Source of the DNA: Natronomonas gomsonensis
Lineage (GTDB): Archaea > Halobacteriota > Halobacteria > Halobacteriales > Haloarculaceae
DNA: 64,000 nucleotides
Reading direction: 5' to 3'
Assembly (NCBI RefSeq): GCF_024300825.1
Contig: NZ_CP101323.1
Span: 2,790,001-2,854,000 of the forward strand
The stretch's first letter is position 1. The number at the start of each line of letters is the position of its first letter. Below are positions 8,085 through 23,683 of the stretch, one piece after another. Below the pieces are notes generated by a model. It saw nothing but the letters and a program-made list of their open reading frames with translations, made no database searches and was not told the DNA's origin. Both the position numbers and the translations under genes were made by a program.

Positions 8085-8143
8085 GCCGAACAGCCCGTCG
8101 TCACGTTCATCCTCGGCCTCCATCTGCGGTCCCGAGGTGGTTT

Positions 8144-10009
8144 ATGATGGATAGGTCGGTTCCCGTGTTCGGACGGCTCCGAGATGTGGTCACGGCATCG
8201 TTCCGCCGGAAACTCGCGACCGCTCTTCTCATCGTCTTCCTCGTCGTCAGTCTCGTGACGGTCGGTTTGTACGTTCAAATCGGTGCGTTGCTGGACGAGA
8301 ACGTCGAACAGTCGATGACAGCGGCTGCAAACGCCGAGGCGAACGAATTGAACGAATGGAGTGGTCAGCATCGTCTCTTGGCTCGGGTCCTCTCGGAACA
8401 CCCAGTCTACGACTCGGGTAACGTCTCTGAGATGCGTACGTTCCTCGAGGCCCAGCATTCTGGTCGACAGGAAACCTCAGTCGTTCGAGCGTACGTCGTC
8501 GACCGTCGGAATCAGACTGTCACCGCCAGCTCGGACTCCCGGATTGAAGGTCAGCAAGTTAGCGACCTTCCATGGGAGGAACCGTTCTCGTTCCGGGATT
8601 TCGACGACGTTCAGTTGACGCAGCCCTACGAGGTTGAAAACGGAACCACTGTAGTCGGATTTATCGCACCGATACGACGGTTGCCAGGTAGCTTACTCGT
8701 CGTGGAAATCAACACCGAAAGCGTCTTCGAGCGGTTCGAACACCCCGTCGATGGTGGCTTCACCAGAGTGGTGAACTCGAACGGTACGGTCGTGTTTGCC
8801 GACGACCGCGACGCGGCACTGACACAGTACAGCGAGGGAACACAACGAGCGCCGATAGTTAGCAGAGGTCTCCGGGGTGAATCTGGGTTCACGGACTCAC
8901 CGACGTACATTGGCGGGGCCTCTGGTTCGGAATACATCGCTGCATACGATTCGGTTTCCGGTACCGACTGGGTCGTCGTCGAACACGCACCTGCCGAAGA
9001 AGCGTACGTCATAACTCGGCGCGGGCGAACGTGGATTGGTGGTATCGCCGTTGTCGCGCTGGTCGCACTGTTCGTGGTTGTCGGTGTTCTCGGAGCCGAC
9101 GTGACGACTGCGCTGTCAGGGCTGACCGACCGTGCCAGACGTATCGAAGCGGGAGAGTACGATGTCCCGTTCGAGACGGACCGCCCCGACGAGTTCGGCG
9201 ACCTCAACCGGACGCTTGAATCGACCCGCGACACACTGCAGGCCCGCATTGAGGAACTCCGTGAGACGAAAGCCGACCTCGAGACCTCGAATACGGCGCT
9301 CGAAGAACGGTCAGCAATGGTGAGCGTCCTGAACCGGATTCTCCGACACAACGTCAGAAACGATGTGAACGTCATCACTGGTCGGACGGAACTGGCCGCC
9401 TCCCGTACCGATGACCAGGTCATCCATGAAGACCTCGAAGCCGTCAAGGAGGCCGCTTGGGAACTTGCTGAACTCTCCGACCGCACACAGCGAATCAAGC
9501 AGTTGCTTTCCGAAACGGAGTCTGAGACGAGACCGATGCAACTGGGGGAGAGCCTATCGTCAGCTGTGTCGAACCTGGATAAAGCTGGGTCTGACGCGAC
9601 TATCACGGTCGACGGCGGCGAGGCGACGGTTGTCGAATCCTCACCGATGTTCCCCGTCGCCATTGCTGATGTCGTCGAGCAAATCCTCTCACACAACGAC
9701 GAGTCAGTACGAGTCGATATCACGGTAGCTGAAGACGAAGCCGATGATAGTGTGGTTGTAGTTCACATTGATGACGACTGTGGCGGGCTACCGGAGTTAG
9801 ACGTTCACGCCGTTGGCGCTGGCGAGGAAACGCCGCTCAACCATGGCGAAGGACTGGCGCTTTGGTGTCTGGAGTGGACCGTCTCGAAAGCGGGTGGGGA
9901 ACTCGATGTTGACCCGGTTGATTCGACGCTTGAAATCCGCTTACCACGGAGCGACTCACTCCAAACGGGGGGTCCGAGTAGTCAACGGGGTAATCAAGGC
10001 CTTCAATAA
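8144..10009 (+). CDS. Membrane sensor histidine kinase (Cache-HAMP-DHp-HATPase)
   Basis: The product has 621 residues. TM1 is about residues 23-46, followed by an extracytoplasmic Cache-like region (47-290), TM2 (298-320), HAMP, and a coiled coil (ETKADLETSNTALEERS). The phosphoacceptor region is LNRILRHNVRNDVNVI near residue 405, the haloarchaeal H-box form. The C-terminal ATPase domain has GEGLALW as G2. The N-box position reads VVEQILSHND instead of the usual ENAxxH pattern, and the D-box reads DDCGGLP. A GAGGTGG Shine-Dalgarno precedes the ATG. No response regulator lies next door, and catalytic competence is uncertain. Confidence 0.88.
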   Translation: MMDRSVPVFGRLRDVVTASFRRKLATALLIVFLVVSLVTVGLYVQIGALLDENVEQSMTAAANAEANELNEWSGQHRLLARVLSEHPVYDSGNVSEMRTFLEAQHSGRQETSVVRAYVVDRRNQTVTASSDSRIEGQQVSDLPWEEPFSFRDFDDVQLTQPYEVENGTTVVGFIAPIRRLPGSLLVVEINTESVFERFEHPVDGGFTRVVNSNGTVVFADDRDAALTQYSEGTQRAPIVSRGLRGESGFTDSPTYIGGASGSEYIAAYDSVSGTDWVVVEHAPAEEAYVITRRGRTWIGGIAVVALVALFVVVGVLGADVTTALSGLTDRARRIEAGEYDVPFETDRPDEFGDLNRTLESTRDTLQARIEELRETKADLETSNTALEERSAMVSVLNRILRHNVRNDVNVITGRTELAASRTDDQVIHEDLEAVKEAAWELAELSDRTQRIKQLLSETESETRPMQLGESLSSAVSNLDKAGSDATITVDGGEATVVESSPMFPVAIADVVEQILSHNDESVRVDITVAEDEADDSVVVVHIDDDCGGLPELDVHAVGAGEETPLNHGEGLALWCLEWTVSKAGGELDVDPVDSTLEIRLPRSDSLQTGGPSSQRGNQGLQ

Positions 10010-10035
10010 CCAATGCGCTCTCCGTCATCTGCAGT

Positions 10036-10060
10036 TGTATAGAATTGCAAATTCTATACA
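10036..10060. promoter_or_regulatory. Perfect 11-bp palindromic operator
   Basis: TGTATAGAATT and AATTCTATACA form a perfect inverted repeat around GCA. It overlaps the TATA-like TTCTATAC ahead of the HTH gene, whose start is 43 nt downstream. This is consistent with autoregulation by that gene product. Confidence 0.8.
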
Positions 10061-10102
10061 CAAGTGTTTTGGTTCCGGGGCACGTATTCGAACGTGATAC
10101 CA

Positions 10103-10498
10103 ATGGTCGACTCGATGGCTGAACAACTCCAGCAAGACATGGAGTGTGAGGGGCTCTTGGAGTGCTTTCACGGGCTCAAACGGCTCGACAGGGAGGTCTT
10201 CCAAACGCTCGTTCACACGGACGAACCGCTAACCGTCGACGCGATTGCGGAGACGGTTGACCGCGAGCGCTCGACGGCGTACCGCGCCGTCCAGCGACTG
10301 CTTCAGGCCGGCTTCATCCAGAAAGAGCAGGTCAACTACGACCAGGGCGGCTACTACCACGTGTATAAGCCGGCCTCGAACGTCACCGACGACATGCAGC
10401 GGTTCCTCAACGACTGGTACGCGAAGATGGGCCAACTCATCGACGAGTTCGAGAACAAATACGAACGGAACGACGCCCCAAACTCACTCGAAGGCTAA
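10103..10498 (+). CDS. HTH transcriptional regulator (TrmB/MarR-like)
   Basis: The product has 131 residues. A winged helix-turn-helix occupies residues ~35-90 (LTVDAIAETVDRERSTAYRA, then VQRLLQAGFIQKEQ), with a wing containing GGYYHVYK and a C-terminal helix that could dimerise (MQRFLNDWYAKMGQLIDEFE). The ATG at 10103 is preferred to an upstream TTG because it follows the operator and promoter at a suitable distance. The palindrome 43 nt upstream and the trxA-trxB operon 150 nt downstream suggest it controls itself and perhaps thiol-redox genes. A single Cys near the N-terminus (EC at ~14) and another at ~20 could be a redox switch, which is speculative. Confidence 0.83.
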   Translation: MVDSMAEQLQQDMECEGLLECFHGLKRLDREVFQTLVHTDEPLTVDAIAETVDRERSTAYRAVQRLLQAGFIQKEQVNYDQGGYYHVYKPASNVTDDMQRFLNDWYAKMGQLIDEFENKYERNDAPNSLEG

Positions 10499-10593
10499 GC
10501 CCTCCGGAGTTTCGAACGCCGGCTGTACCGCGTCGAGTCGTGTCTCTCTTCTGCCGTAGGTCACTCTCGACTCGACGGGGCGTTGCCACAGTA

Positions 10594-10608
10594 GTATTGT
10601 AGGAATAC
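10594..10608. promoter_or_regulatory. Imperfect inverted repeat upstream of trxA
   Basis: GTATT-gtagg-AATAC sits just upstream of the AT-rich CTTAATTAC (10618-10626), the likely TATA of trxA. It is a weak relative of the palindrome at 10036 and could be a second regulator site. Confidence 0.3.
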
Positions 10609-10648
10609 CCCATAACTCTTAATTACTGTCGGCCCCTATCGTGAGGTG

Positions 10649-11008
10649 ATGACAGTCGAAACCGCTTCCGACACAGGAACAACCACGCCCGACGAACCAC
10701 GCCCCATCGCCGGCCAGAGCGAACTGGACGAGTTCGTCGCGGACAACGACGTGGTCCTCGCGGACTTCTACGCCGACTGGTGTGGTCCCTGTCAGATGAT
10801 TGCGCCCATCGTCGAGCGACTGGCCGCCGAGACCGACGCCGCGGTCGCGAAAGTCGACGTTGACAGAAACCAACAGCTGGCGGCCGCCTACGGCGTCCGT
10901 GGGGTGCCCACGCTCGTCCTCTTTGCCGACGGCGAGCAGGTCGAGGAAATCGTCGGCGTCCAGGGCGAAGACCAACTCCGCTCGCTGATTCGGGGGTACA
11001 CCGAGTAA
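10649..11008 (+). CDS. trxA: Thioredoxin
   Basis: The product has 119 residues. It is a classic thioredoxin fold with active site WCGPC (residues 44-48) in ADFYADWCGPCQMI and the cis-Pro loop RGVPTLVLFADG. An acidic 20-residue extension precedes the domain, as in many haloarchaeal thioredoxins. The ATG at 10649 has a GAGGTG just upstream, and the GTG at 10646 is an alternative. The stop is followed directly by the ATG of the reductase gene, giving a trxA-trxB operon in which the reductase recycles this protein. Confidence 0.95.
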   Translation: MTVETASDTGTTTPDEPRPIAGQSELDEFVADNDVVLADFYADWCGPCQMIAPIVERLAAETDAAVAKVDVDRNQQLAAAYGVRGVPTLVLFADGEQVEEIVGVQGEDQLRSLIRGYTE

Positions 11009-12028
11009 ATGAGCGGGGATATCCACGATGTCGTCGTCGCGGGCTCGGGCATCGCCGGCCTCTCGGCGGCCGTCTACGCGGCGCGTGCCGACCTCGACCC
11101 GCTCGTCCTCGAGGGCGACGAGCCCGGCGGCCAGCTGACGCTGACCACCGATGTCGAGAACTTCCTCGGGTTCCCCGAGGGCGTCGGCGGCATGGAACTC
11201 GTCCAGCGGGGCAAAGAGCAAGCCGAGCGGTTCGGCGCGACGTTCCAACACGGGAGCGTCGAGTCCGCGACTCTCGACGGGCAGCCGAAAGAACTCACCC
11301 TCTCGACGGGTGAGACGATTCGGACGCGTTCGCTCGTCGTCGCCACCGGCGCCAGCGCCCGCTGGGTCGGCGCCGAAAACGGAGCCGACCTGATGGGCTA
11401 CGGGCTGTCGACGTGTGCGACCTGTGACGGCGCGTTCCACCGCGGGGACGACGTTCTCGTCATCGGCGGCGGCGACAGCGCGATGGAGGAGGCGCTGTTC
11501 CTCACGAAGTTCGCCGAGTCGGTCACAATCGTCCACCGGCGCGAAGAGCTTCGCGCCTCCGAAATCATGGCCGAACGCGCCCGCGAGCACGAGGACATCG
11601 AGTTCAGGTGGAACACGGAACTGCAGACCCTCCACGGCTCACAGGAAGAGGGAGTCACCGGTGCGACGCTCGTCTCTCACCCCGACGGCTATCCGCGGGA
11701 GAAAGCCGAAGCGGGTATCGAGGTCGACACCGAAACGGTCGATGTCGGCGGCGTGTTCTACGGCGTCGGCCACACACCAAACACCGACTTCCTGGAGGGA
11801 ACGGGTGTCGAGCGCGACGACAGCGGTTACATCGTCCCGCAGACCGACGCGGACGGTCGCCCGACCGCTCGGACGACTGTCGATGGCGTCTTCGCCGCCG
11901 GCGACGTTGCGGACCCGAACTACCGGCAGGCGATTACGTCGGCGGGGACCGGGAGCATGGCTGCACTCGACGCCGAGGAGTATCTGGAGACGCTCTCGGA
12001 GCGGAAGCGCCAGCGCATCGAAGCGTAA
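11009..12028 (+). CDS. trxB: Thioredoxin reductase
   Basis: The product has 339 residues. The FAD-binding GSGIAGLSAAVYAARA is at residues 12-27, the redox-active CATC at 136-139 (LSTCATCDGAF), and the NAD(P)-type Rossmann motif VIGGGDSAMEEA follows. The C-terminal FAD motif DGVFAAGDV with RQAITSAGTGS completes the low-Mr reductase fold. The gene begins immediately after trxA. It transfers electrons from NAD(P)H or another donor to thioredoxin; cofactor preference cannot be settled by eye. Confidence 0.95.
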   Translation: MSGDIHDVVVAGSGIAGLSAAVYAARADLDPLVLEGDEPGGQLTLTTDVENFLGFPEGVGGMELVQRGKEQAERFGATFQHGSVESATLDGQPKELTLSTGETIRTRSLVVATGASARWVGAENGADLMGYGLSTCATCDGAFHRGDDVLVIGGGDSAMEEALFLTKFAESVTIVHRREELRASEIMAERAREHEDIEFRWNTELQTLHGSQEEGVTGATLVSHPDGYPREKAEAGIEVDTETVDVGGVFYGVGHTPNTDFLEGTGVERDDSGYIVPQTDADGRPTARTTVDGVFAAGDVADPNYRQAITSAGTGSMAALDAEEYLETLSERKRQRIEA

Positions 12029-12142
12029 GCAGGATAGAATTACGGGCCCCGACTGTCGTTCGAACCGATTTCACGTCCGTTTGGATGGGTTTGTCAGAAC
12101 GTTTTGTAAGGCACTCTTCGACCGACCGGTAGAGCGACCAGC

Positions 12143-14851
12143 ATGTCCGACAATCCGTTCACCGATTCATCCATCTCTCGCCGGCAGTTCGTTCGACTCT
12201 CCGCCGCGACTGGCGGAGCGCTCGCGCTACCCGGACAGGCCAGCGCCGACGCATCTGCGCCGGCGTTCGACGCCGAATACGAGTACCTCCTGAACCACAC
12301 GCCAGATGACTACGCGGTGCCGACGCTCGTGACGTTCGATGACGTGGGGGGTCTGCGAGCGATGGAGGCGCTCGTCTCCGAGACGCGAACGACGGCCGAA
12401 CCGCAACCGGCGGGTTACGCGACGCTGTCGACGACACAGGCCCAGCGAGTCGCCGACCTGCCGACGGCGGAGACGCTTCACTTCTCGCCGGGAGCGAACC
12501 CGTTCTGGCGACTCGGCTACTATCCCCTCGGCGTCTTTCCGGAACCCGAACGGAGCGTCGATTTCCTCGATTACGAGGAGGTGGCCGCCGGACTCGACCA
12601 CCTCGCCGACGTACACGACGACCGGATGCGGGTGCTGTCTGTCGGGGAAAGCGCGGGCAAGTACAACAACATCAGCGACCGCCGGGACCCACGGGACGTA
12701 CTCGTCGTCGAACTCGCCGAGAACGTCGACGACCGCGAAGCCTTCGCGGCGAAGAAGCAGGTGCTGATTAACTGCACCATCCACGGGAACGAGCGGGCCG
12801 GCGGCGAGGCCGCACCGCGGTTCATCGAGGAGGTGCTGACCGGCCGTGAGCGACACATCGAAGCGCTGCTCGAGGAGTACGCCCTCGTGTTCACCTTCAC
12901 GAACCCCGACGGGTGGGCGGCCCGTCGACCGCAGTACGAAAGCAACGGGGTTCCGGGCGCGCCGCTGCACGAACGCGGCAATCTCGGCGGCGACACCAAC
13001 CGCCAATTCCCCAATCCGGGATGGGTGTCCGCAGCCCACACCATCGCCGAACCGCTCGGGCGGACGCTGGACGGCGAGACACGGCCGCCGGACTACGTCG
13101 CGGAGACGACGCCCGATATGCTCGCGTTCGTCGAGCACTGTCGAACGTACGAGAACCTCGTCTGTGGTATCGACCTCCACGGGATGTTGACCTCGAAGGA
13201 TTTCGTGCTCGCCCTCGATGGAGCCTCCCAGTCGTCGACGGACCAACTGCAGAACAGTTTCGACCTCATCGAGATTATCGACGACCACGTCACCGAGGCG
13301 TTGCCGGAGTGGGAGCAGGCCGGCGAGGCGCTGACTCCGCTCACCGACCAGTTCAACCCCAGCGCGGCGGGACTGTCGGCGATTCCCGAACAGGCGTTCA
13401 ACTACGGAACGCCCGTCGAGACCATCGGCTACTCGGGGACAGGTTTCGTCGACGAGTGGATGTCGTTCCCCGAGGAGCTAGGCGGACTCGGCATCCCGAG
13501 TCTGACCATGGAGATGGCGTACTCGAACACCGTCGGTGGGAACGTCTTCGATCCGGTTCGCGTCGGGATGCAGGCCGACGGCTACCGGGCGTCGATTCGC
13601 GGCGCCGTCGAGTTCGCCACCCGCGATGTCGAGGGTCGTTTCGAGGGCGACGGCGACATCGCCTACGTCGAGACGGATTCGCTGACCGCCAGTGCCGAGG
13701 ACTTGCCGCATCCCGCCGACGCACCGGACGGCGACGACGCGAGCGTCTCGACGACGAGCGAGACGACGGTTCCGGCCGGCGGAACGGGGATAGCGACGAC
13801 GACCGTTGGCTCCGAGACGACCGCACTCGCGGTCCATCCCCACGTTCCTCAGTCGGTCGCAAGTGCACGCCTCCGAGCACCCGACGGCGATATCGTTCGC
13901 GAGTTCGATGCGACTGACGGTCGAGCACTCGGTGGGGCCTGCTGTGGGCTGCCGACGTGGGAGGTGTCGACCCCGGCGGCCGGCGAGTGGACGCTCGAAC
14001 TGCGCGACGAACTGGGTGAGGGAAGCGACGCGCGGGCGTCGTTCGTTCAGGCCCGCGGCGCCGGTGAGGCGCCTGACCCCCGCGAGCAACTCGGCTACGA
14101 ACAACGCGACTACGAGGTGACGCCGCTGCGGTACTTCGAGGACTTCGCTGACGACGCCGACGTGGCCGTCGACGGCGTGACCGTCGAGGAGGTCGTCGAA
14201 GCACCGGCGCCCGGAAAGAGTGTCGAGAACGGCAACGCATCCTTCACCGACGGTGTCGACCTTTCGCCGTACGACCATCTCGTCGCAATCCACGACGACG
14301 GCGAGGCCGACGAGGAGTACGTCGAGTCACTCGAGTCGTTCGTCGAAAGCGGTGGAAACCTCGTCGTCACCGACAGCGGCCTGAACCTGCTTTCGGCCTT
14401 CGAGAGCCTCGATATCGTTTCGGCGGATATCTACGAGCAGACCGGCTACGTCGGCCAACTCGATTCGGTGAATGACGGTCACCCACTGGTCACCGACCGC
14501 CGTCCGATTCAGGACCACCTGTGGTACATCGCGCCGGTCGGATACTCCGAGGACGAGGCGCCGGTGTGGAGTATCGACAGCAACACCTTCGAGGAGTCGG
14601 GTGGCACCGTCGCAGGGACCGCCGGCGGTGATGTCGTCGTCGGAACGCTGGAACTCGGAGCGGGAACGATACAGGTCGTCGGGTCGTTGCTGCCCGAGGC
14701 GAACCAATCGAACCTCCACCCGTTTGGCATGTGTGACTACGCGACGACGTACTTCGGCCACCTCGTGATGACGAACGCACTTCGCGGTCAGCAGGTCCGT
14801 GCGGTTGACGGCCGCGAGACGGTTCGGGTCGGTCGCGGGAGCGGCGAGTAA
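12143..14851 (+). CDS. Secreted M14-family zinc carboxypeptidase-like protein
   Basis: The product has 902 residues. The Tat leader is SRRQFVRLSAATGG (residues 12-25). The M14 domain has the zinc pair H214 and E217 (TIHGNERAGGE), a third ligand at about H346 (GIDLHGML), and a catalytic Glu candidate E457 (TMEMAYSNTV). A C-terminal region of about 400 residues contains a beta-rich part and a GATase/ThuA-like segment (LSPYDHLVAIHDDGEADEEY). It probably acts outside the cell on peptides or amide-linked polymers. It is monocistronic in appearance, 114 nt after trxB. Confidence 0.88.
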   Translation: MSDNPFTDSSISRRQFVRLSAATGGALALPGQASADASAPAFDAEYEYLLNHTPDDYAVPTLVTFDDVGGLRAMEALVSETRTTAEPQPAGYATLSTTQAQRVADLPTAETLHFSPGANPFWRLGYYPLGVFPEPERSVDFLDYEEVAAGLDHLADVHDDRMRVLSVGESAGKYNNISDRRDPRDVLVVELAENVDDREAFAAKKQVLINCTIHGNERAGGEAAPRFIEEVLTGRERHIEALLEEYALVFTFTNPDGWAARRPQYESNGVPGAPLHERGNLGGDTNRQFPNPGWVSAAHTIAEPLGRTLDGETRPPDYVAETTPDMLAFVEHCRTYENLVCGIDLHGMLTSKDFVLALDGASQSSTDQLQNSFDLIEIIDDHVTEALPEWEQAGEALTPLTDQFNPSAAGLSAIPEQAFNYGTPVETIGYSGTGFVDEWMSFPEELGGLGIPSLTMEMAYSNTVGGNVFDPVRVGMQADGYRASIRGAVEFATRDVEGRFEGDGDIAYVETDSLTASAEDLPHPADAPDGDDASVSTTSETTVPAGGTGIATTTVGSETTALAVHPHVPQSVASARLRAPDGDIVREFDATDGRALGGACCGLPTWEVSTPAAGEWTLELRDELGEGSDARASFVQARGAGEAPDPREQLGYEQRDYEVTPLRYFEDFADDADVAVDGVTVEEVVEAPAPGKSVENGNASFTDGVDLSPYDHLVAIHDDGEADEEYVESLESFVESGGNLVVTDSGLNLLSAFESLDIVSADIYEQTGYVGQLDSVNDGHPLVTDRRPIQDHLWYIAPVGYSEDEAPVWSIDSNTFEESGGTVAGTAGGDVVVGTLELGAGTIQVVGSLLPEANQSNLHPFGMCDYATTYFGHLVMTNALRGQQVRAVDGRETVRVGRGSGE

Positions 14852-14893: not shown

Positions 14894-15358
14894 TCAACCG
14901 AAGATGCCGAAGCCGAGACCGCCGAGGAAGCCGACGATGACCGCGACGGGGTTGTCCTGGGTCTCGATGTCGACGGTGGCGACTTCCTCGCCGTCCTGCA
15001 TGACCGCGAAGGAGTCACCGAACCCACCGCTGTTGCGGTCTTCGAACTCGTTGTACCCCTCGTAGGTCAGCGAGCCGGGTCCGAGGTACAACTCACCGTC
15101 CTTCTCGCAGTAACTGGCCTGTGATTCGCTTTCTACACAGTCGACGCGGGCGTGGCCGCCGGTGACGACGCCGTCGACGACGAGCGTGCTGCCGTCGTCG
15201 GTTTCGAAGGTAATCTCACCGGGAACGCCGTCGCCGCCGAGTTCGATGTCGTTTTCGCCGAGGGGGTCTTCGGCGGACTGGGCCGCCGCGGGCATCGTCG
15301 CGATTCCAACCCCGACCAACAGCGTCAGGAGGGCCACGATTGCAGTACGGGTGTCCAT
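14894..15358 (-). CDS. Secreted/anchored haloarchaeal protein, function unknown
   Basis: The product has 154 residues. A Sec-type signal peptide (MDTRTAIVALLTLLVGVGIA, cleavage near AAAQ) precedes a small beta-rich domain with two cysteines (VDCVESESQASYCEKD) that may form a disulfide. A short C-terminal hydrophobic tail follows (VAVIVGFLGGLGFGIFG). I know no family name. The start at 15358 is supported by the TATA-like TAAATTTATTT (15376-15386) about 24 nt upstream, a leaderless arrangement. Confidence 0.75.
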   Translation of the reverse strand: MDTRTAIVALLTLLVGVGIATMPAAAQSAEDPLGENDIELGGDGVPGEITFETDDGSTLVVDGVVTGGHARVDCVESESQASYCEKDGELYLGPGSLTYEGYNEFEDRNSGGFGDSFAVMQDGEEVATVDIETQDNPVAVIVGFLGGLGFGIFG

Positions 15359-15375
15359 ACCACACCCAAAACAAC

Positions 15376-15386
15376 AAATAAATTTA
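15376..15386 (-). promoter_or_regulatory. TATA box for secreted-protein gene
   Basis: On the minus strand TAAATTTATTT is centred 24 nt from the ATG at 15358. It lies in the A+T-rich divergent region shared with mcm. Confidence 0.5.
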
Positions 15387-15497
15387 GAGTTCTGCCGGCA
15401 AGTCACTGTCTTTTATAAACTGGCGACGAGCGACAGTCTACTTTCACCCCGGTTGGCAAAGTTCTTATTCGGTGCCGCGCCAAGACGTGATACCCTC

Positions 15498-18400
15498 ATG
15501 GCGCGCGCGGAGAACACCGAAGTCATCGACAAGTTCGAGCAGTTCTACCGCGACTACTATCGCAACGAAATCGGTGAACTCGCCCAGAAGTACCCGAACG
15601 AACAGCGCTCGCTGTACGTCGACTGGGACGATCTCTATCGTTTCGACCCCGACCTCGCCGACGACTTTATCGCCCAACCCGAACAGATGCGCGACTACGC
15701 CGAGGAGGCCCTCCGACTGTACGACCTTCCGGTCGACGTGAAACTGGGACAGGCCCACGTTCGAATCCAGAACCTCCAGAAGACGACGGGCATCCGTGAA
15801 ATCCGCGCGCGCCATCGCGGACAGTTGGTCGCCGTCTCCGGCATCATCCGGAAGGCGACCGACGTACGCCCGAAAGTGACCGAGGCCGCCTTCGAGTGTC
15901 AACGCTGTGGCACGCTTACCCGCATCCCCCAGACCTCCGGGGAGTTCTACGAACCCCACGAGTGTCAGGGCTGTGAGCGGCAGGGTCCCTTCGAAATCAA
16001 CTTCGATCAATCGGAGTTCGTCGACGCCCAGAAACTCCGCGTTCAGGAGTCCCCCGAGGGATTGCGCGGCGGGGAGACGCCCCAGAGCATCGACGTGAAC
16101 ATCGAAGACGACATCACCGGGAAGGTGACTCCCGGCGACCACGTTCGGGTCATCGGTATCATCCACCTCGACCAACAGGAGCAAAACCAGAGCAAGACGC
16201 CCATCTTCGACGTGTACATGAGCGGCATCTCCGTCGAAATCGAGGACGAGGAGTTCGAGGAGATGGACATCACCGACGAGGACAAGAAGGAAATCTACGC
16301 GCTCTCCGAACAGCAGGACATCGAACAGCAGTTCATCGATTCGATGGCACCTTCCATCCACGGCTACGAACAGGAGAAACTCGCCATCATCCTGCAGTTG
16401 TTCGCCGGCGTCACGAAGAACCTCCCCAACGACTCCCGAGTGCGTGGGGACATCCACATCCTGCTGATGGGCGACCCCGGGACCGGGAAATCCCAACTGA
16501 TTCAGTACGTCAAGAACATCGCCCCGCGGGCGGTGTCGACTTCCGGGAAGAGCAGCTCTGCGGCCGGGTTGTGTGTCACCGGCGATACGATGATTCACAC
16601 CGACAGCGGATTCCAACCGATTCGCGACCTCGTTACTGGGGAGCTTCCCGAACCGGTTCGCGATGAGACGGCCGCCCCGAAGGCCGTCGGCGTACAGTCG
16701 TTCGACCGGAAAGCTGGCGAGATGACAGAAGCCACCACCTCACACGCGTGGCGAATGCCGGAGAAGCCGTGCCGTCGAATCGAGACGAGCGACGGGAAGG
16801 AACTCGAAGCCTCGGTGAACACGCCCGTGTTGACGTGCGGTTCCGACGGCATTGAGTGGCGGGAGATATCGGAAATCGAGGCCGGCGATTACGTCGCCAT
16901 ACCCCGACACGGGGACCTCGACCGTTCGCCGGTGCCCGTTCGGGAGTTCTTGGAACTGTCGACGGAGAAAATCCAGCTATCGGACGAATCGGTTGCGTTC
17001 CTCCGTGAGGCGCTTCAGGCGGAGTTCGGGACACTCAGAGACGCGGCGGCGGAACTGGACCTCTCGGAGGATTTCATCTACCTCCACCTCAAGAATCGCC
17101 ACGTCCCACTGGAGAAACTGGACCGGATGCTTGGGGCTATCGGAGCGACCCGCGACGACGTTCAGTTCGAGCGGTTGATGCTCAGACACGGCGACAGCAT
17201 CACGCTCCCCGAAACGTTCGACGAGGATCTCATGTACCTATCGGGTCTCGTATTCGGTGACGGCGATATCTCGCTGGACCGACGCGGGGGGAACCGAGGA
17301 CAGGTTCGCATCTCCAACGGCGACGAGACGGTGCTTGAACGGGCGGCCGACATCTTCGAAGCCAAATTCGACAAGCGACCGGACATAGAGCATCAGGACG
17401 ACAGAGTTCCGTCCATTCGGTTCAACAGCGCGACCGTCGCGCGGTTGTTCTCGAATGCGGGAATGGAGACGCCGAAAGCGGACCTCGCGTTGGCTCCGGA
17501 ACTGACTGCCGCAGAGCACGCTGACGCGTTCCTTCGGGGTCTGATGGACGCCGATGGTTCCGTCTCGGCACGCGACAACGGCGGGTCGAGCGTTTTGCTC
17601 TCGACGATTAGTGAGGACCTCGCCCGACAGGTCCAGTTGCTGCTCGAAACGTACGGCGTTCGGGCGTCGGTTCGCGAACGGGACCGGCGAGGGACTTACG
17701 AACTCGCCGATGGGCGGACCATCGAGTCGAAACACGTCCAGTACTTCGTCGAGATGTACGGGGCCGATATCGACCGGTATGCCGAGGCTATCGGCTTCGA
17801 AGTCCCCGAGAAGCAGGAGGCCCTCGAAGGAATAGTCGCCGAGAACCGACAGCAACGCGAGATGCTCCCCGTCGGCTCGGCGCTTGCGACTGTCGATGGG
17901 TCGGCCGGCGAATACTACCAGAACGTCAACCGGGGGGACAACCCCGGACGAGCACGAGCACGTACGATGCTCGAAGACATCGACCTCGGGTCGGCGGAAC
18001 CGAACGTGCGTGAAGCCGTCGAGGCGGACCTCCGCTGGGACGAAGTCGTTGCCGCCGTCGACACCGGCGAAAAAGAAGTGTTCGACCTGACGGTTCCGGA
18101 GACGCACAACTTCGTCGGAAACGGCATCGTGACCCACAACACCGCTGCAGCTGTTAGAGACGACTTCGCCGACGGCCAGCAGTGGACACTCGAGGCCGGC
18201 GCCCTCGTCTTGGCCGACCGCGGCGTCGCTGCCGTCGACGAACTCGACAAGATGGACTCCTCGGACCGCTCGGCGCTCCACGAGGGCCTCGAACAACAGC
18301 AAATCAGCGTCAACAAGGCCGGCATCAACGCGACGCTGAAGAGCCGATGTTCGCTTCTGGCGGCGGCGAACCCGAAGTACGGCCGCTTCGACCAACACGA

Positions 18401-19163
18401 AAAGTACAGCCAGCAAATCGACCTCGAACCGGCGCTGCTGTCGCGGTTCGACATCATGTTCATCATCACGGACGTGCCGGACCAAGAGAAGGACAAGGAA
18501 CTGGCCGAACACATTGTCCAGACGAACTACGCCGGCGAGGTGTACACCCACCAACAGCAGAACCCCACTTCGAACTTCTCGGAGGACGAAGTCGAGAAAG
18601 CCACCGAGGACGTCCAGTCGGCCATCGACCCCGAGTTGATGCGGAAGTACATCGCCTTCGCCAAGCGGAACGTGTTCCCGACGATGACCGAGGAAGCCAA
18701 GACGGTCATCGAGGACTTCTACGTCGACCTCCGCTCGAAGGGGCTCGACGAGGGCTCGGCAGTTCCGGTGACGGCACGGAAACTGGAGGCGCTGGTTCGG
18801 CTCTCGGAGGCCAGCGCCCGGATGCGATTGGGCGACCACGTCGAGAAACGCGACGCCGAGAAGGCCGTCGACATCGTCATGTCCTCGCTGAAAGACGTCG
18901 GCGTCGACCCCGAGACCGGCGAGTTCGACGCCGACATCGTCGAGACGGGCACCTCCAAGAGCCAACGCGACCGCATCAAGAACATCAAGGCTCTCATCAG
19001 CGAAATCCAAGAGGAGTACGAAGAGGGCGCCCCCATTGAGGAGGTACTCGACCGCGCCGAAGAGATGGGCACCGAGCGATCGACGGCCGAACACGAAATC
19101 GAGAAACTCCGACAGAAGGGCGAGGTGTACGAACCGCAGGGTGGACACCTGCGGTCGGTGTGA
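15498..19163 (+). CDS. mcm: MCM replicative helicase with in-frame intein
   Basis: The product has 1221 residues before splicing and 698 after removal of the intein, the usual size of haloarchaeal MCM. The N-domain has a zinc-binding site (FECQRCGTL at ~C134, then HECQGCERQ). The AAA+ core has Walker A GDPGTGKSQL at 325-334, Walker B GVAAVDELDKM, and arginine-finger region LLSRFDIMF. A winged-helix-like C-terminus ends STAEHEIEKLRQKGEVYEPQ. It is the hexameric DNA helicase of replication forks. The ATG at 15498 begins the conserved MARAENTEVIDKFEQFYRDY; the frame stays open 336 nt upstream but that region belongs to the divergent gene. Confidence 0.96.
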   Translation: MARAENTEVIDKFEQFYRDYYRNEIGELAQKYPNEQRSLYVDWDDLYRFDPDLADDFIAQPEQMRDYAEEALRLYDLPVDVKLGQAHVRIQNLQKTTGIREIRARHRGQLVAVSGIIRKATDVRPKVTEAAFECQRCGTLTRIPQTSGEFYEPHECQGCERQGPFEINFDQSEFVDAQKLRVQESPEGLRGGETPQSIDVNIEDDITGKVTPGDHVRVIGIIHLDQQEQNQSKTPIFDVYMSGISVEIEDEEFEEMDITDEDKKEIYALSEQQDIEQQFIDSMAPSIHGYEQEKLAIILQLFAGVTKNLPNDSRVRGDIHILLMGDPGTGKSQLIQYVKNIAPRAVSTSGKSSSAAGLCVTGDTMIHTDSGFQPIRDLVTGELPEPVRDETAAPKAVGVQSFDRKAGEMTEATTSHAWRMPEKPCRRIETSDGKELEASVNTPVLTCGSDGIEWREISEIEAGDYVAIPRHGDLDRSPVPVREFLELSTEKIQLSDESVAFLREALQAEFGTLRDAAAELDLSEDFIYLHLKNRHVPLEKLDRMLGAIGATRDDVQFERLMLRHGDSITLPETFDEDLMYLSGLVFGDGDISLDRRGGNRGQVRISNGDETVLERAADIFEAKFDKRPDIEHQDDRVPSIRFNSATVARLFSNAGMETPKADLALAPELTAAEHADAFLRGLMDADGSVSARDNGGSSVLLSTISEDLARQVQLLLETYGVRASVRERDRRGTYELADGRTIESKHVQYFVEMYGADIDRYAEAIGFEVPEKQEALEGIVAENRQQREMLPVGSALATVDGSAGEYYQNVNRGDNPGRARARTMLEDIDLGSAEPNVREAVEADLRWDEVVAAVDTGEKEVFDLTVPETHNFVGNGIVTHNTAAAVRDDFADGQQWTLEAGALVLADRGVAAVDELDKMDSSDRSALHEGLEQQQISVNKAGINATLKSRCSLLAAANPKYGRFDQHEKYSQQIDLEPALLSRFDIMFIITDVPDQEKDKELAEHIVQTNYAGEVYTHQQQNPTSNFSEDEVEKATEDVQSAIDPELMRKYIAFAKRNVFPTMTEEAKTVIEDFYVDLRSKGLDEGSAVPVTARKLEALVRLSEASARMRLGDHVEKRDAEKAVDIVMSSLKDVGVDPETGEFDADIVETGTSKSQRDRIKNIKALISEIQEEYEEGAPIEEVLDRAEEMGTERSTAEHEIEKLRQKGEVYEPQGGHLRSV
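16572..18140 (+). other. Intein with LAGLIDADG endonuclease inside mcm
   Basis: The insertion interrupts the MCM sequence between GKSSSAAGL and TAAAVRDDF. The first residue is Cys (CVTGDTMIHTDSG, block A), the last residues are VTHN (block G), and the +1 extein residue is Thr. Two LAGLIDADG motifs, LSGLVFGDGD (intein residue ~224) and LRGLMDADGS (~321), keep their acidic residues, so the homing endonuclease could be active. At block B the expected TxxH appears as SVNT in LEASVNTPVLT, so the usual His is absent. Length is 523 residues. The coding frame continues across both junctions. Confidence 0.95.
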
Positions 19164-19266
19164 ATGGACCGGATCGCACGCTGTTGAATCGATTGTAGCG
19201 GTCCATTGAGCGTATTTCGTACAGTGTTACAGATTAGGATTTGTTGGATAGACACGCTGTACAACC

Positions 19267-19808
19267 GGTGTACGCGGGTGTACACTCATTAAGCAGTCCG
19301 CAGTGTGAATGCCGTGAGGAGGTGCGAGGGGTGAATTCCAAACCAAGCAGATACGACAGGGAACTGGGGAGACTGAAGCCAGCGAAATACATCAAAGAGG
19401 GCCTAACAAGACAATATACCCCAAAGAGCTGAAACGCGGGCGACTAGAATATCCGTATCTCAGAATTGAAAATCAGCCGATACACCCCCATACTTTCGGG
19501 GGTGTACGCGGGTTTCAGCGATACGAGGGGTGGCGCATTCCGAACGTCCACCTGGCGTATCCCTTCGGGTGAGCGATGGCCGTACAGCGTTCGATATCGC
19601 CGACTGATATGGGTGTTCAACCTGAAGCAGGGGTTTCTCGGGTACTACGACAGGTCGCCTCTCCTCTACGGGTCCCGACAACCAGTCAACCAACCGGGGC
19701 ACAGCACCACAAAACAGTCCACACTGCGGGCATTCGAATGAGTGTACACTCTCGATAAGAGTGAGTACACCGGGTGTACAGGCTGATTCACGACTTCTAA
19801 GGGTGTAC
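19267..19808. repeat. Cluster of six GGTGTAC motifs
   Basis: GGTGTAC is at 19267, 19277, 19501, 19773 and 19802 on the plus strand, and at 19765-19771 on the minus strand. The first two are exactly 10 bp apart (one helical turn). A 13-bp direct copy, GGTGTACGCGGGT, recurs at 19267-19279 and 19501-19513. GTACACC-g-GGTGTAC at 19765-19779 is a palindrome. Confidence 0.8.
19278..19749. repeat. Composite inverted repeat bounding a 472-bp segment
   Basis: Outer arms GTGTACACTCATT (19278-19290) and its exact complement (19737-19749) are 13 bp. Inner arms CCGCAGTGTG (19298-19307) and its exact complement (19720-19729) are 10 bp. Both sides have a 7-nt spacer between inner and outer arm, so the architecture is symmetrical. 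No transposase lies inside. Confidence 0.8.
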
Positions 19809-20105
19809 GACACGCGAAGCAGAACGATATCGTCTCGATGTATTATTGAACGGGAAAATGGTGAACCCTCAGTACTCGATGTGAATAGCGTGCTGCATAC
19901 AGCGGATAAGTTCAGTACGGCGGCTTCGTTTGTTTCAGATTGAAGACGACGAACCAGCCGTTAGGTAGATATGCTTAATGACTGCCCGTTTATCTGTCAG
20001 ATACTAAGAATGTTGAAAACAATCTACTGTATACAGGGCGCATATCCTTCACTACTTTTTGTGGGAACTTAGTTTGAAACCCGGTGGAGTATCAGTCCAC
20101 GCTAG

Positions 20106-20768
20106 CTACTCCCTAATATCTCTCGTCGTATCCTCAGATTTCGCTAAGAGGTAGCCACCAAACGCGAGCAGCCAGAGGATGAGCGGGTAGACGACCCACC
20201 GCTCGATTCCGCCGCCCCCGAGGAATTCAAGCGGATGGGGGCCACCGACAACCAATCCGAAGAAGAAAACACTGACGAGAGTAAGAAACGAGACTCCGCC
20301 ATAGAATCCACAAAGGAAGGAAAACGGTCGAGAAACAACTCGGGTGGAGAGCAGGACCGTGATCCCGCCCGTGAAAAACGTGAGGAGCGCGAATAGTCCA
20401 TGCCACGGCGTCACGTTCCCCGGAAACACACCGACGCCAAACGCGCCGAATCCAAAGACGGCTAGTGTAATCGGGAACCCGCGACGATCCATTACCCGGT
20501 AAAGGAGGTACGCCGAGAGGATTACGATCGCTCCTGTCAGGAGCATCGTAGAATTGAAAATTGTCGCCGAGGGTTCGTGTATCACTGGATTCGGTGGGCG
20601 TGTTGACCCCAGGTCGCTGATATCCTGTCGGGTCGAATAGTTCGGATAGAGGACCTCAGCTGTCATGATCCCCATGAAGCCAATGAAGCCCGACATGGTG
20701 AGACCGAACCCCGCTATTGACCGTTTTGAGAGCCCGAGTCGGGACTGGAGAGAGTCAGTTTGGGTCAT
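20106..20768 (-). CDS. DUF998 family membrane protein
   Basis: The product has 220 residues with six or so hydrophobic helices. The family hallmark ISDLGSTRPPN follows the first helix, and NSTMLLTGAIVILSAYLLYR and VGVFPGNVTPWHGLFALLTF are further DUF998-like signatures. DUF998 proteins are integral membrane proteins of unknown function. The ATG at 20768 has an AGGAG about 2-6 nt upstream, and a TATA-like AGTTATTT lies farther back. It is the first intact gene in the island and diverges from the broken DUF3267 gene. Confidence 0.85.
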   Translation of the reverse strand: MTQTDSLQSRLGLSKRSIAGFGLTMSGFIGFMGIMTAEVLYPNYSTRQDISDLGSTRPPNPVIHEPSATIFNSTMLLTGAIVILSAYLLYRVMDRRGFPITLAVFGFGAFGVGVFPGNVTPWHGLFALLTFFTGGITVLLSTRVVSRPFSFLCGFYGGVSFLTLVSVFFFGLVVGGPHPLEFLGGGGIERWVVYPLILWLLAFGGYLLAKSEDTTRDIRE

Positions 20769-21010
20769 CTCCTGATTGTTCGTGCGAAAAGAAGAAATAA
20801 CTATCTGCTTGACAGATTGTGTTTCTGCTACATACGCTCCTCTATCCAGCAGCACTCCAAGCGCATCAACGCGATATGGTAATGGCTACAGCGGTAGGTG
20901 GCCTGTCTTCGCCGAACAGCAGTGTCGCACGAGAATATGTCCGAAGAATAGGGTCTCGATGGCTCCACACGCATAAAAAGTAATTATCGATTCGCTGGAA
21001 AGTGTCATAG

Positions 21011-21663
21011 ATGGCTGACAAAGGACCGATTGCGTCGGCTGAAGCGAAGGCCGAGGGCGTTTCCCCCCCACCGACTCCAGAGGAATACAGCGACCCTTAC
21101 CAGTTCGAGTACCCCAAACTGCTCCTTGTCGTGGCTGGAATTGCACTGACGGTCGTCTTCACTGTCGTCTATGGGATAATTTTGGTTCAGATACAGGGCC
21201 CGAATGTTTACCCGTCGTATTCGAGACCGGCGCAGAGGGCGAAATAACAGTTTTGTTGCAACTCAGTCAGGTAGCGATTCCGATGGTGTTCGCGTTTCTG
21301 ACCGTCGCTGTCTTCCACGAACTACTCCACGGATTGGTCTTCCAGCGATACGGCTACGACGTGAACTACGGCGTCTACTGGCGGTTTGGGGCGGTATATG
21401 CAGCGGTTTTTCACCAGTTTCACTCCCGCGAGCATAACCTTCGGGTCGGCATCGCACCGTTAGCGATTATTACCGTTATTTTTCTACCCTTGCTTGCGGT
21501 GCCTCACCCAGTCGTTGCCGCGGTGGCGTTTTTTGTTCTCGTGTTGAATACCGCCGGCTCGGTTGGGGACATTTACGCTCTCTGGCGGTTCTATCGGATG
21601 CCGCAGGGCACGGTCTTTTACGATATCAACATGGACAATATGTACGTGTTTGAACCGAAATGA
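21011..21663 (+). pseudogene. DUF3267 zinc metalloprotease gene, frameshifted
   Basis: Two adjacent frames make one family member. The 5' part (21011-21247) has an acidic N-terminus, PYQFEYPKLLLVVAGIALTV as first helix, then PNVYPS before stopping early. The 3' part is in the +1-related frame from about 21214 (VVFETGAEGEITVLLQLSQV) and contains the HExxH zinc motif FHELLHGLVFQRYG, later helices and NMDNMYVFEPK. A single-base indel near 21200-21225 explains the split. The alternative is a sequencing error. DUF3267 proteins are multi-pass membrane proteases-like. An AT-rich CATAAAAAGT lies about 35 nt upstream of the start. Confidence 0.8.
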
Positions 21664-22006
21664 AGACCCAATTCAGCTGATTGTCTCCGATATCTTTGTG
21701 TTGACGTTGCTCGCTTTGCCCACTGTATTCAGCAGTCTGTTTCTAATAGTTTCAGAGATATTCTGCTTAACGTGATGCATCTTTGGCCTTCAATGTCCAA
21801 TCGACTGATCTTGACAGATGACGCTCAGCTCGCGAGTCTCTACCTGTAAAATATTATCCGATTGCTAATATCTGCAATAAACTAAATATCTCAAAACCTG
21901 ATTGGATGGAAACCGGCGTTCAGTACAGCGATACCTCACCAGTGCGAACCCGGTGATTTTTATCAGCCGCGACGGGTGGCGGCTGCCAGCAGTCGCCGGA
22001 AAGTTA
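21664..22006. other. 343-bp A+T-rich intergenic region before recombinase pair
   Basis: No gene is supported. The last 60 nt hold a TATA-like TTTTTATC (21957-21964) suited to transcription of the recombinase operon, and AACTAAATATCT (21881-21892) is another candidate. The rest shows nothing I can name. Confidence 0.5.
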
Positions 22007-22495
22007 ATGACGAGAACAAAATCACCGAACCCGAAGCGTCGAATGGGCGTGTACAAGCGATTTGACTCCGTTCCTACAAAGCACCGTCTTGACCGATACG
22101 ATGTGGAATATGAAGGTCGAGACGTCTGGGCGGAGTTCGAACGAACGCGCAACGATGAATTTGACTCTCAGGCATACCGGAACACGCTGAAAAAGACCGA
22201 ACGGACGTGGAAGGCACACATGTCAAGTCGTGGCCGGCATCACGCGCTCGCGAGACCGCGAGATGTTGAGACGTGGTGCGCGGATCTCGCTACTGACCGG
22301 AAACTGGAGACCGTGTACAAGGAGTACTGGATTCGGCTCGAAGAGTTTTATTCGTGGCTTCAGACCCACATTGACCATCCACATGTGTATCAACCCGTCC
22401 TCATGGCTGCCGCGAGTCATGAGATAGCGCGCGCTGTTTGGTGGGCGAAAATGGACCATAACAAAGCAGCTCTAGACGGGGTGAACGATGACTAA
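22007..22495 (+). CDS. Recombinase core-binding-domain protein lacking catalytic domain
   Basis: The product has 162 residues. After a basic start (MTRTKSPNPKRRMGVYKRF) comes a helical domain, AYRNTLKKTERTWKAHMSSR with LEEFYSWLQTHIDHPHVYQP, that parallels the N-terminal SAM-like domain of the next gene (AYRRLFEQWRNHMQSEGRH and FEYWQSDTVFPHPQDFNP). No Arg/His/Tyr catalytic region follows. The stop overlaps the next start by 8 bp. I infer an accessory DNA-binding subunit or a remnant of a duplicated integrase. The frame is open upstream to 21902, so the start (22007 or a GTG at 21952) is uncertain. Confidence 0.65.
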   Translation: MTRTKSPNPKRRMGVYKRFDSVPTKHRLDRYDVEYEGRDVWAEFERTRNDEFDSQAYRNTLKKTERTWKAHMSSRGRHHALARPRDVETWCADLATDRKLETVYKEYWIRLEEFYSWLQTHIDHPHVYQPVLMAAASHEIARAVWWAKMDHNKAALDGVNDD

Positions 22496-23618
22496 TCAGG
22501 CTGACCGCAGCCGAGAAATACTGGCCGACGCGTTCGACCGAGAGACGGACCCGCTCAAACGATATGAGCCGACATTCTCGCAAATCGATGTTGATCCCTT
22601 TGAGATGTTTTACTCCGAGATTTTAGAAGCGAATAACAACGCAGAGGGAACGAAGACTGCCTATCGGCGGCTATTCGAGCAATGGCGAAACCATATGCAA
22701 AGCGAAGGGAGACATCCAGCGTGCCCCAACGAACAGCATGTTCGGTTATTCGCAGAACACTGTCTAGAGCATCGAAATAATCAACCGGATACTGTTCGGA
22801 CGAAGCTCCGTCGACTGTCTGGTGTTTTCGAGTACTGGCAATCCGACACCGTGTTTCCTCACCCACAGGATTTCAACCCATTTGAGCAGGTTACTTCCAA
22901 GATGGACCTGCGACGACCAGCACAGAAAGAGCCACCGCGTATTCCAGTCCCCACCCTCCGAGAAATACTCGAAGCAGTTACACACATTCGAGACTGGTTA
23001 GTTATCGGCTCACAGTTGAAACTCGGGCTCCGGGCCTCGGAGTTGTGTAATCTCCAACTCCAAGACATCAATCTGGATCATGACGAACTCAACCGATTCT
23101 ATCCGGACTTGGGGACACATCCCGAAGTCTCGGACCGACCAAACGCAGTTTACGTTGCTACGCGTGAGGAACGGGACAAAAACAAATCGCGAAATCCACG
23201 TGTACTCCCTCTTGATGAAGAACTTCAGTCGGCCGTCACACGCTACTTGCTAACTCGACCTGATTCTGGTGCTCCCTGGGTAATCCTTTCACACACGACT
23301 CACAGCCAGGTTTCGCAAGAGTATGTAAATTCTACGTGGAGAGACGTATTCCGCCCCGAATACGATGAAACAGCGGAGCATCGAGCTGTGACAAGTCACT
23401 TCGGCCGACATCGGTTCACGACGTACTGGCGTGTCGAACAGGATCTGAACAGAGAACTCGTGAAATACATGCGCGGCGATACACCACAAGACGCCTCGAA
23501 CGGTGGTCGAGACGCTATCGATGAATACCTTCACACGTACTACGAGGATATCGAGTCAATCTATCGGGAGCGGATATTCTCACTCGGTTTGAACGATCCG
23601 ACTACTCCCGGATATTGA
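22488..23618 (+). CDS. Tyrosine recombinase/integrase (XerC/D-like)
   Basis: The product has 376 residues. The N-terminal core-binding domain is at ~35-135. The catalytic domain has the first Arg in LKLGLRASELCNLQ, a basic beta-hairpin (REERDKNKSRNPRVLPL), the H-x-x-R box SHFGRHRFTTYW and the nucleophile region DEYLHTYYEDI. The usual LGH box reads YMRGDT, a form common in haloarchaeal integrases. It cuts and joins DNA at specific sites, for element integration or resolution. It overlaps the preceding core-binding gene and closes the A+T-richer island. No tRNA attachment site is evident next to it. Confidence 0.9.
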   Translation: MTNQADRSREILADAFDRETDPLKRYEPTFSQIDVDPFEMFYSEILEANNNAEGTKTAYRRLFEQWRNHMQSEGRHPACPNEQHVRLFAEHCLEHRNNQPDTVRTKLRRLSGVFEYWQSDTVFPHPQDFNPFEQVTSKMDLRRPAQKEPPRIPVPTLREILEAVTHIRDWLVIGSQLKLGLRASELCNLQLQDINLDHDELNRFYPDLGTHPEVSDRPNAVYVATREERDKNKSRNPRVLPLDEELQSAVTRYLLTRPDSGAPWVILSHTTHSQVSQEYVNSTWRDVFRPEYDETAEHRAVTSHFGRHRFTTYWRVEQDLNRELVKYMRGDTPQDASNGGRDAIDEYLHTYYEDIESIYRERIFSLGLNDPTTPGY

Positions 23619-23683
23619 GCGAAGGAACAGCTTATCCGTCCGCCAACGTTCTGGAATCACCGCCGTAGAAAACAGCCGTTCGT

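Follow-up and report, generated by a model that had tools for sequence, protein, structure and literature searches.

What does a composite inverted repeat do in the DNA that follows the mcm gene of Natronomonas gomsonensis? We studied this locus within a window of 64,000 nucleotides (the whole stretch of DNA that was analyzed) and compared it with related loci; G000 denotes the genome of the window, other G numbers the genomes compared, and L numbers the loci read. The original prediction described exactly inverted outer (13-bp) and inner (10-bp) arms with equal 7-nt spacers, and this description proved accurate. The left arm (positions 19278 to 19307) is GTGTACACTCATT-AAGCAGT-CCGCAGTGTG, and the right arm (19720 to 19749) is CACACTGCGG-GCATTCG-AATGAGTGTACAC. 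The outer arms (19278 to 19290 on the plus strand and 19737 to 19749 on the minus strand) are inverted at 13 of 13 positions and the inner boxes (19298 to 19307, plus; 19720 to 19729, minus) at 10 of 10, giving 24 of 30 matches in total with a 7-nt spacer on each side. A chance origin had been considered unlikely, and we agree: no other inverted pair in the surrounding 10 kb had 23 or more of 30 matches, and none of eight first-order Markov shuffles of the same 10 kb reached that value (best, 22). The symmetry extends outward through a 17-nt pair (19257 to 19273 and 19765 to 19781; 94%). The whole symmetric element measures about 0.55 kb (19257 to 19808) and is read on the minus strand, the orientation used for the other copies.

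The symmetry is centered roughly on a segment bearing a palindrome (19481 to 19506; TACACCCCC-ATACTTTC-GGGGGTGTA, with 9-bp arms and an 8-nt spacer), which was absent from the original prediction. The inner boxes follow the pattern CCGCARTGTG and lie about 230 and 190 bp from this palindrome. A second repeat, GTGTAC, is concentrated in the outer parts of the element: 9 of the 44 GTGTAC/GTACAC sites of the window fall within it, and any other 560 bp holds at most two. On the mcm side (19268 to 19285), these repeats occupy 19268 to 19273 (plus), 19278 to 19283 (plus), and 19280 to 19285 (minus); on the distal side (19742 to 19808), they occupy 19742 to 19747 (plus), 19744 to 19749 (minus), 19765 to 19770 (minus), 19774 to 19779 (plus), and 19803 to 19808 (plus). 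The GC content of the element is 0.53, compared to about 0.62 in mcm. Two mechanical open reading frames cross the segment (19466 to 19741, plus; 19460 to 19813, minus). Neither had a Pfam match and the segment had no Rfam match, so we rejected both a coding sequence and a hidden RNA gene and retained the earlier description of the segment as gene free. No nearby tRNA that could serve as an att site was found.

The element lies in a low-GC island (19178 to 23668) that looks foreign and has replaced a host operon after mcm. Colinearity with G001 and G015, the nearest relatives (95% identical over the last part of mcm), runs up to position 19177 of the window and resumes at 23668. In these two genomes the interval is filled by host genes spanning 4.18 kb (DUF7854, DUF7855, DUF7856, DUF7857, TFB, and a MinD/ParA-like gene), and this operon follows mcm, whole or partial, in every other genome of the genus that was read except G002. 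When sought elsewhere in G000, the operon genes were not found as such, and only partial, paralogue-like matches were seen. The G000 island is 4.49 kb long, with a GC content mostly between 0.43 and 0.56 against 0.58 to 0.66 on the flanks. It contains the element, DUF998, DUF3267, a gene for a 197-aa protein (21902 to 22495, plus strand), and the tyrosine recombinase gene (Phage_integrase, Pfam PF00589; 22488 to 23618, plus strand), which, as the original prediction had it, begins 2.7 kb past the end of the right arm. The 197-aa protein, the partner of the recombinase, has no family match and may be a detached DNA-binding subunit; its counterparts stand beside recombinases in G002 (L015 and L016). 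At mcm in G002 we found the identical order of element, truncated gene for a viral-type primase-polymerase (PrimPol; 209 aa), cargo, and recombinase pair, with the host operon likewise replaced. The upstream mcm gene (15162 to 19163) contains an intein, according to NCBIfam matches to the N- and C-terminal intein parts.

The original prediction was to be given up if the arms recurred nowhere and were not conserved in close relatives; further copies and conserved boxes were both found. A DNA search of the genome itself (3.65 Mb in two contigs) gave two more complete copies, at 1.710 and 3.497 Mb, making three with that of the window, and a later search added a relic at 1.274 Mb (L375, around 1414 to 1700) that has kept its right-hand side and core flanks and lost the palindrome. 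Congeners carry copies in G002 (two), G008, G010, G016, G018 (two complete and one decayed), and, weakly, G003. Copies can be aligned in blocks only, namely, a core of about 68 bp, the CCGCARTGTG/CACACTGCGG boxes, the GTGTAC repeats, and a site resembling an origin recognition box (ORB). The core is the most conserved part (19454 to 19521, minus strand; 91 to 92% identity in BLAST matches to the 1.710- and 3.497-Mb copies). From the left box to the palindrome center, six of the eight copies measure 231.5, 231.5, 231.5, 230.5, 228.5, and 226.5 bp, respectively, and the remaining two 206 and 192 bp; this spacing is kept although the intervening DNA is unalignable. Repeats inside one element vary together, being GTGTAC in most copies and GTGTGA in G018. 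Over a 70-bp core, the window copy shows 81 to 89% identity with the other complete copies in its own genome, at 1.710 and 3.497 Mb, and only 76% with the one that occupies the corresponding place after mcm in G002. Because the window core is closer to its own-genome copies than to its positional counterpart, the comparison suggests that the two mcm copies either arrived independently or underwent concerted change within a genome.

We next considered the palindrome. Among 14 palindromes, the CACCCC/GGGGTG core is invariant, and both partners vary at three outer pairs. The covariation score was 0.174; shuffles averaged 0.049 (none of 500 was as high), and slid versions did not exceed 0.066. Sequences entered the alignment for having a palindrome, which biases the percentage of pairing; the weight rests on the compensatory changes. 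A conserved palindrome with such changes is what would be expected of the origin of a PrimPol replicon of the pRN1 kind. The exact palindrome pattern was matched in Natronomonas only across 392 genomes of the order. Of 73 PrimPol loci taken from named genomes, five, all in Halorubrum, show a CCGCA box, a central palindrome, and a TGCGG box upstream of the gene, with the boxes 459 to 480 bp apart and the palindrome between them; L143 and L159 were recognized by eye. A scan of 3.0 Mb for the box-palindrome-box arrangement gave nine distinct matches, seven of which were element copies, and none in the reversed sequence; the other two, L133 and L210, look like chance. The layout is present in at least two haloarchaeal genera, Natronomonas and Halorubrum.

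Most copies of the element have a PrimPol gene next to them. A PrimPol of the NrS-1 family adjoins the element in six loci of the genus (G000 at 1.71 Mb, G002 at 2.02 Mb, G008, G010, G018 at 2.97 Mb, and, weakly, G003), so the adjacency known from pRN1 holds for the family, though not for the window copy. The protein is about 375 aa long and carries the NrS-1 polymerase HBD domain (PF22763); Prim/Pol and HBD were recognized, and no SF3 helicase or winged-helix domain was. The family profile matched, over residues 13 to 303, "Primase" structure entries, which we take to be the NrS-1 primase (E value of about 1e-53). The Prim/Pol and HBD parts of the NrS-1 enzyme are described as responsible for polymerization and de novo priming (PMC7102993). 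The element usually lies upstream of the PrimPol gene; in G010 it lies on the 3′ side, and it is therefore not simply the PrimPol promoter. No PrimPol was present in the stretches read around the copies in the window, at 3.497 Mb, in G016, and at 2.83 Mb in G018, and a search of the window for PrimPol or ATPase remnants gave no significant match. PrimPol loci of Natrinema, Haloferax, and others have different repeat arrays upstream, with similar spacing. A 9-mer occurred at least three times within 600 bp at 23 of 70 PrimPol loci (33%), compared to 23 of 412 control stretches (5.6%), related loci in this count not being independent. In the 600 bp upstream of PrimPol in L120, L125, L134, L152, L167, and L181, the spacing is about 30 and 42 to 44 bp in several, and the repeat sequences are very different.

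The ORB-like (Orc1/Cdc6 box-like) site of the window copy occupies positions 19614 to 19636 on the minus strand (AAACCCCTGCTTCAGGTTGAACA). Scored against the consensus of the ORBs of the genome's own oriC1, the best site occurs at the same place and on the same strand in all nine copies. It reaches 19 of 21 in two copies and a weak 16 of 21 in the window (2% of shuffles were as good); the score was equaled by at most 2% of shuffles in six of the nine copies and was no better than shuffles in two. When an element profile was run over about 5.4 Mb of DNA (both strands counted), it matched nothing outside the element family except, weakly (E value of about 0.2), the pair of oriC1 ORBs that flank the start of the orc1 gene in the same genome. 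The agreement is suggestive of an Orc1-type box. GC skew was also considered and was dropped as a test of origin activity because the positive control, oriC1, gave no signal. The window copy is 59 kb from a local minimum, and the G002, G018, and window copies coincide with no minimum, oriC1 likewise showing none. In a 400-kb stretch, a minimum lies at about position 1,712,600 of G000 C1 (L296), 2.7 kb from the 1.71-Mb PrimPol copy, again with no minimum at the oriC1 control.

Known origins resemble the element in different respects. Iteron origins, as in plasmids and satellite phage P4, consist of short repeated sites whose sequence varies between replicons while the layout is constant. The repeats of the element likewise differ in sequence while the layout stays; in contrast to iterons, they flank a central palindrome and occur in either orientation, and no iteron-binding initiator was recognized. 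Haloarchaeal oriC, which adjoins orc1/cdc6 and carries ORBs with a G-string, shares the inverted symmetric layout, and the ORB-like site resembles the ORBs of oriC1. However, about 106 kb separate the window copy from the nearest orc1/cdc6 gene (Cdc6_C match), each element has a single ORB-like site rather than two inverted ORBs with a G-string, and other repeats dominate (compare PMC3528665). Replication of pRN1, a PrimPol-family plasmid of Sulfolobus, needs a noncoding stem-loop beside the PrimPol gene; this stem-loop could be placed elsewhere with respect to the gene (PMC4234260). Both the pRN1 origin and the element are noncoding, lie beside a PrimPol gene, and contain a stem-loop or palindrome, the integrity of which matters in pRN1 (PMC4234260). 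The pRN1 stem-loop is about 100 bp long and has no iterons, whereas the element is about 0.55 kb long and has repeats, boxes, and a short palindrome; the pRN1 Rep protein has helicase and DNA-binding domains, and the PrimPol here has no recognized helicase domain.

We think that the segment is probably the replication-origin module of a mobile haloarchaeal replicon that uses an NrS-1-type PrimPol and that the window holds an orphan copy of it, beside the host mcm and without a PrimPol. We infer origin activity from sequence comparison, as the simplest common account of a PrimPol gene on either side, the repeats, the fixed box spacing, the compensatory changes in the palindrome, the ORB-like site, and the pRN1 precedent. 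Several observations count against this reading: the window copy is far from any orc1/cdc6 gene, the ORB-like site is single and in two copies scores no better than shuffles, AT richness in the window copy peaks at a modest 0.68 over 40 bp (compared to 0.73 in oriC1), some close PrimPol genes (in G015 and at 2.91 Mb in G002) have no such element alongside, and a DNA similarity search of plasmid and phage records did not find the element. The element profile also gave no match among viral loci. Under the proposed mechanism, an initiator would bind on both sides, at the GTGTAC repeats and at the CCGCARTGTG boxes, perhaps assisted by host Orc1/Cdc6 at the ORB-like box. The bound initiator would draw the arms together and open or extrude the central palindrome, where PrimPol (Prim/Pol plus HBD, lacking a recognized helicase domain) would prime, and host MCM and the replisome would extend from that primer. 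A bolder version has the mcm-side orphan as a captured, working chromosomal origin that is unlinked to orc1/cdc6 and is activated in trans by a PrimPol from another part of the genome, such that one chromosome would have several dispersed PrimPol-type origins; we regard this as rather unlikely. The window orphan has kept its palindrome, and another orphan of the same genome, the 1.274-Mb relic, has lost its own.

Other functions were weighed against the origin reading. There is a small chance that the segment serves the same mobile elements in partition (as a parS-like site) or in transfer (as an oriT-like site), with the symmetric repeats loading a segregation protein or a VirD4/HerA-like ATPase. 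A gene for a TrwB/VirD4/HerA-like ATPase of about 1150 aa does accompany PrimPol near the element in several loci (G000 at 1.71 Mb, G002 at 2.02 Mb, G008, and G018), and a palindrome with flanking repeats would fit either type of site. However, the closest gene encodes PrimPol rather than the ATPase, the neighbors scanned included no recognizable relaxase or ParA/ParB, and the ORB-like site would be left without a role.

The original prediction had also proposed a recognition array for a recombinase or regulator. In general terms this idea stood, given the iterated GTGTAC sites, palindrome, and boxes; a recombinase is a less likely user than replication proteins because most complete copies adjoin PrimPol and several have no recombinase in the 16 to 17 kb read around them. 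It is quite improbable that the element is an array of att or resolution sites for the tyrosine recombinase pair. In the window, 2.1 kb separate the pair from the element, and such a pair is also close to both G002 copies, but no homologous recombinase was found in the 16 to 17 kb around L013, L014, L017, L018, L019, and L041. Integration by a tyrosine recombinase would leave one copy of a core sequence at each end of the integrated element, and we rejected att repeats at the island ends since no direct repeat links them. The chance is similarly slim that the element is a transcriptional control region, an operator array for the neighboring genes. Iterated sites do look like operators, and the usual place of the element is directly upstream of PrimPol; against this stand the downstream position in G010, the persistence of the PrimPol-free copies (window, 3.497 Mb, G016, and G018 at 2.83 Mb) with no common neighbor gene, and a length of 0.55 kb with fixed inner spacing, which is large for an operator. 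A miniature inverted-repeat element or other nonautonomous transposon, as first proposed, is barely credible: copies are dispersed and the arms are inverted, but the copies share short internal blocks and no end-to-end similarity, near-identical full-length copies were not seen, neither a target duplication (at the element or island ends) nor a clean empty site was found, and the arms sit inside a longer conserved layout.

In the open-access literature on haloarchaeal iteron, PrimPol, and orc-independent origins, we found no description of this family; subscription papers were mostly outside the scope of the search, and novelty is thus provisional. The family is apparently undescribed so far, and PrimPol-plasmid origins as a kind are already known. 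Origins of PrimPol replicons have been characterized for very few archaeal plasmids. A layout recognizable in at least two genera would provide a test set for how replication starts with a PrimPol that lacks its own helicase and a means of finding hidden integrated replicons. It would also offer a case in which to ask whether archaeal chromosomes acquire orc1-independent origins from integrated elements.

Some copies have further genes nearby. A RAMP-like gene (weak TIGR03986 match) is found near copies in G008 and G018 (L019, 11835 to 12701; L367, 134 to 1051) and is possibly CRISPR-related cargo. Beside the 3.497-Mb copy, L014 encodes a 1376-aa STAND-type NTPase with TPR repeats (8125 to 12255).
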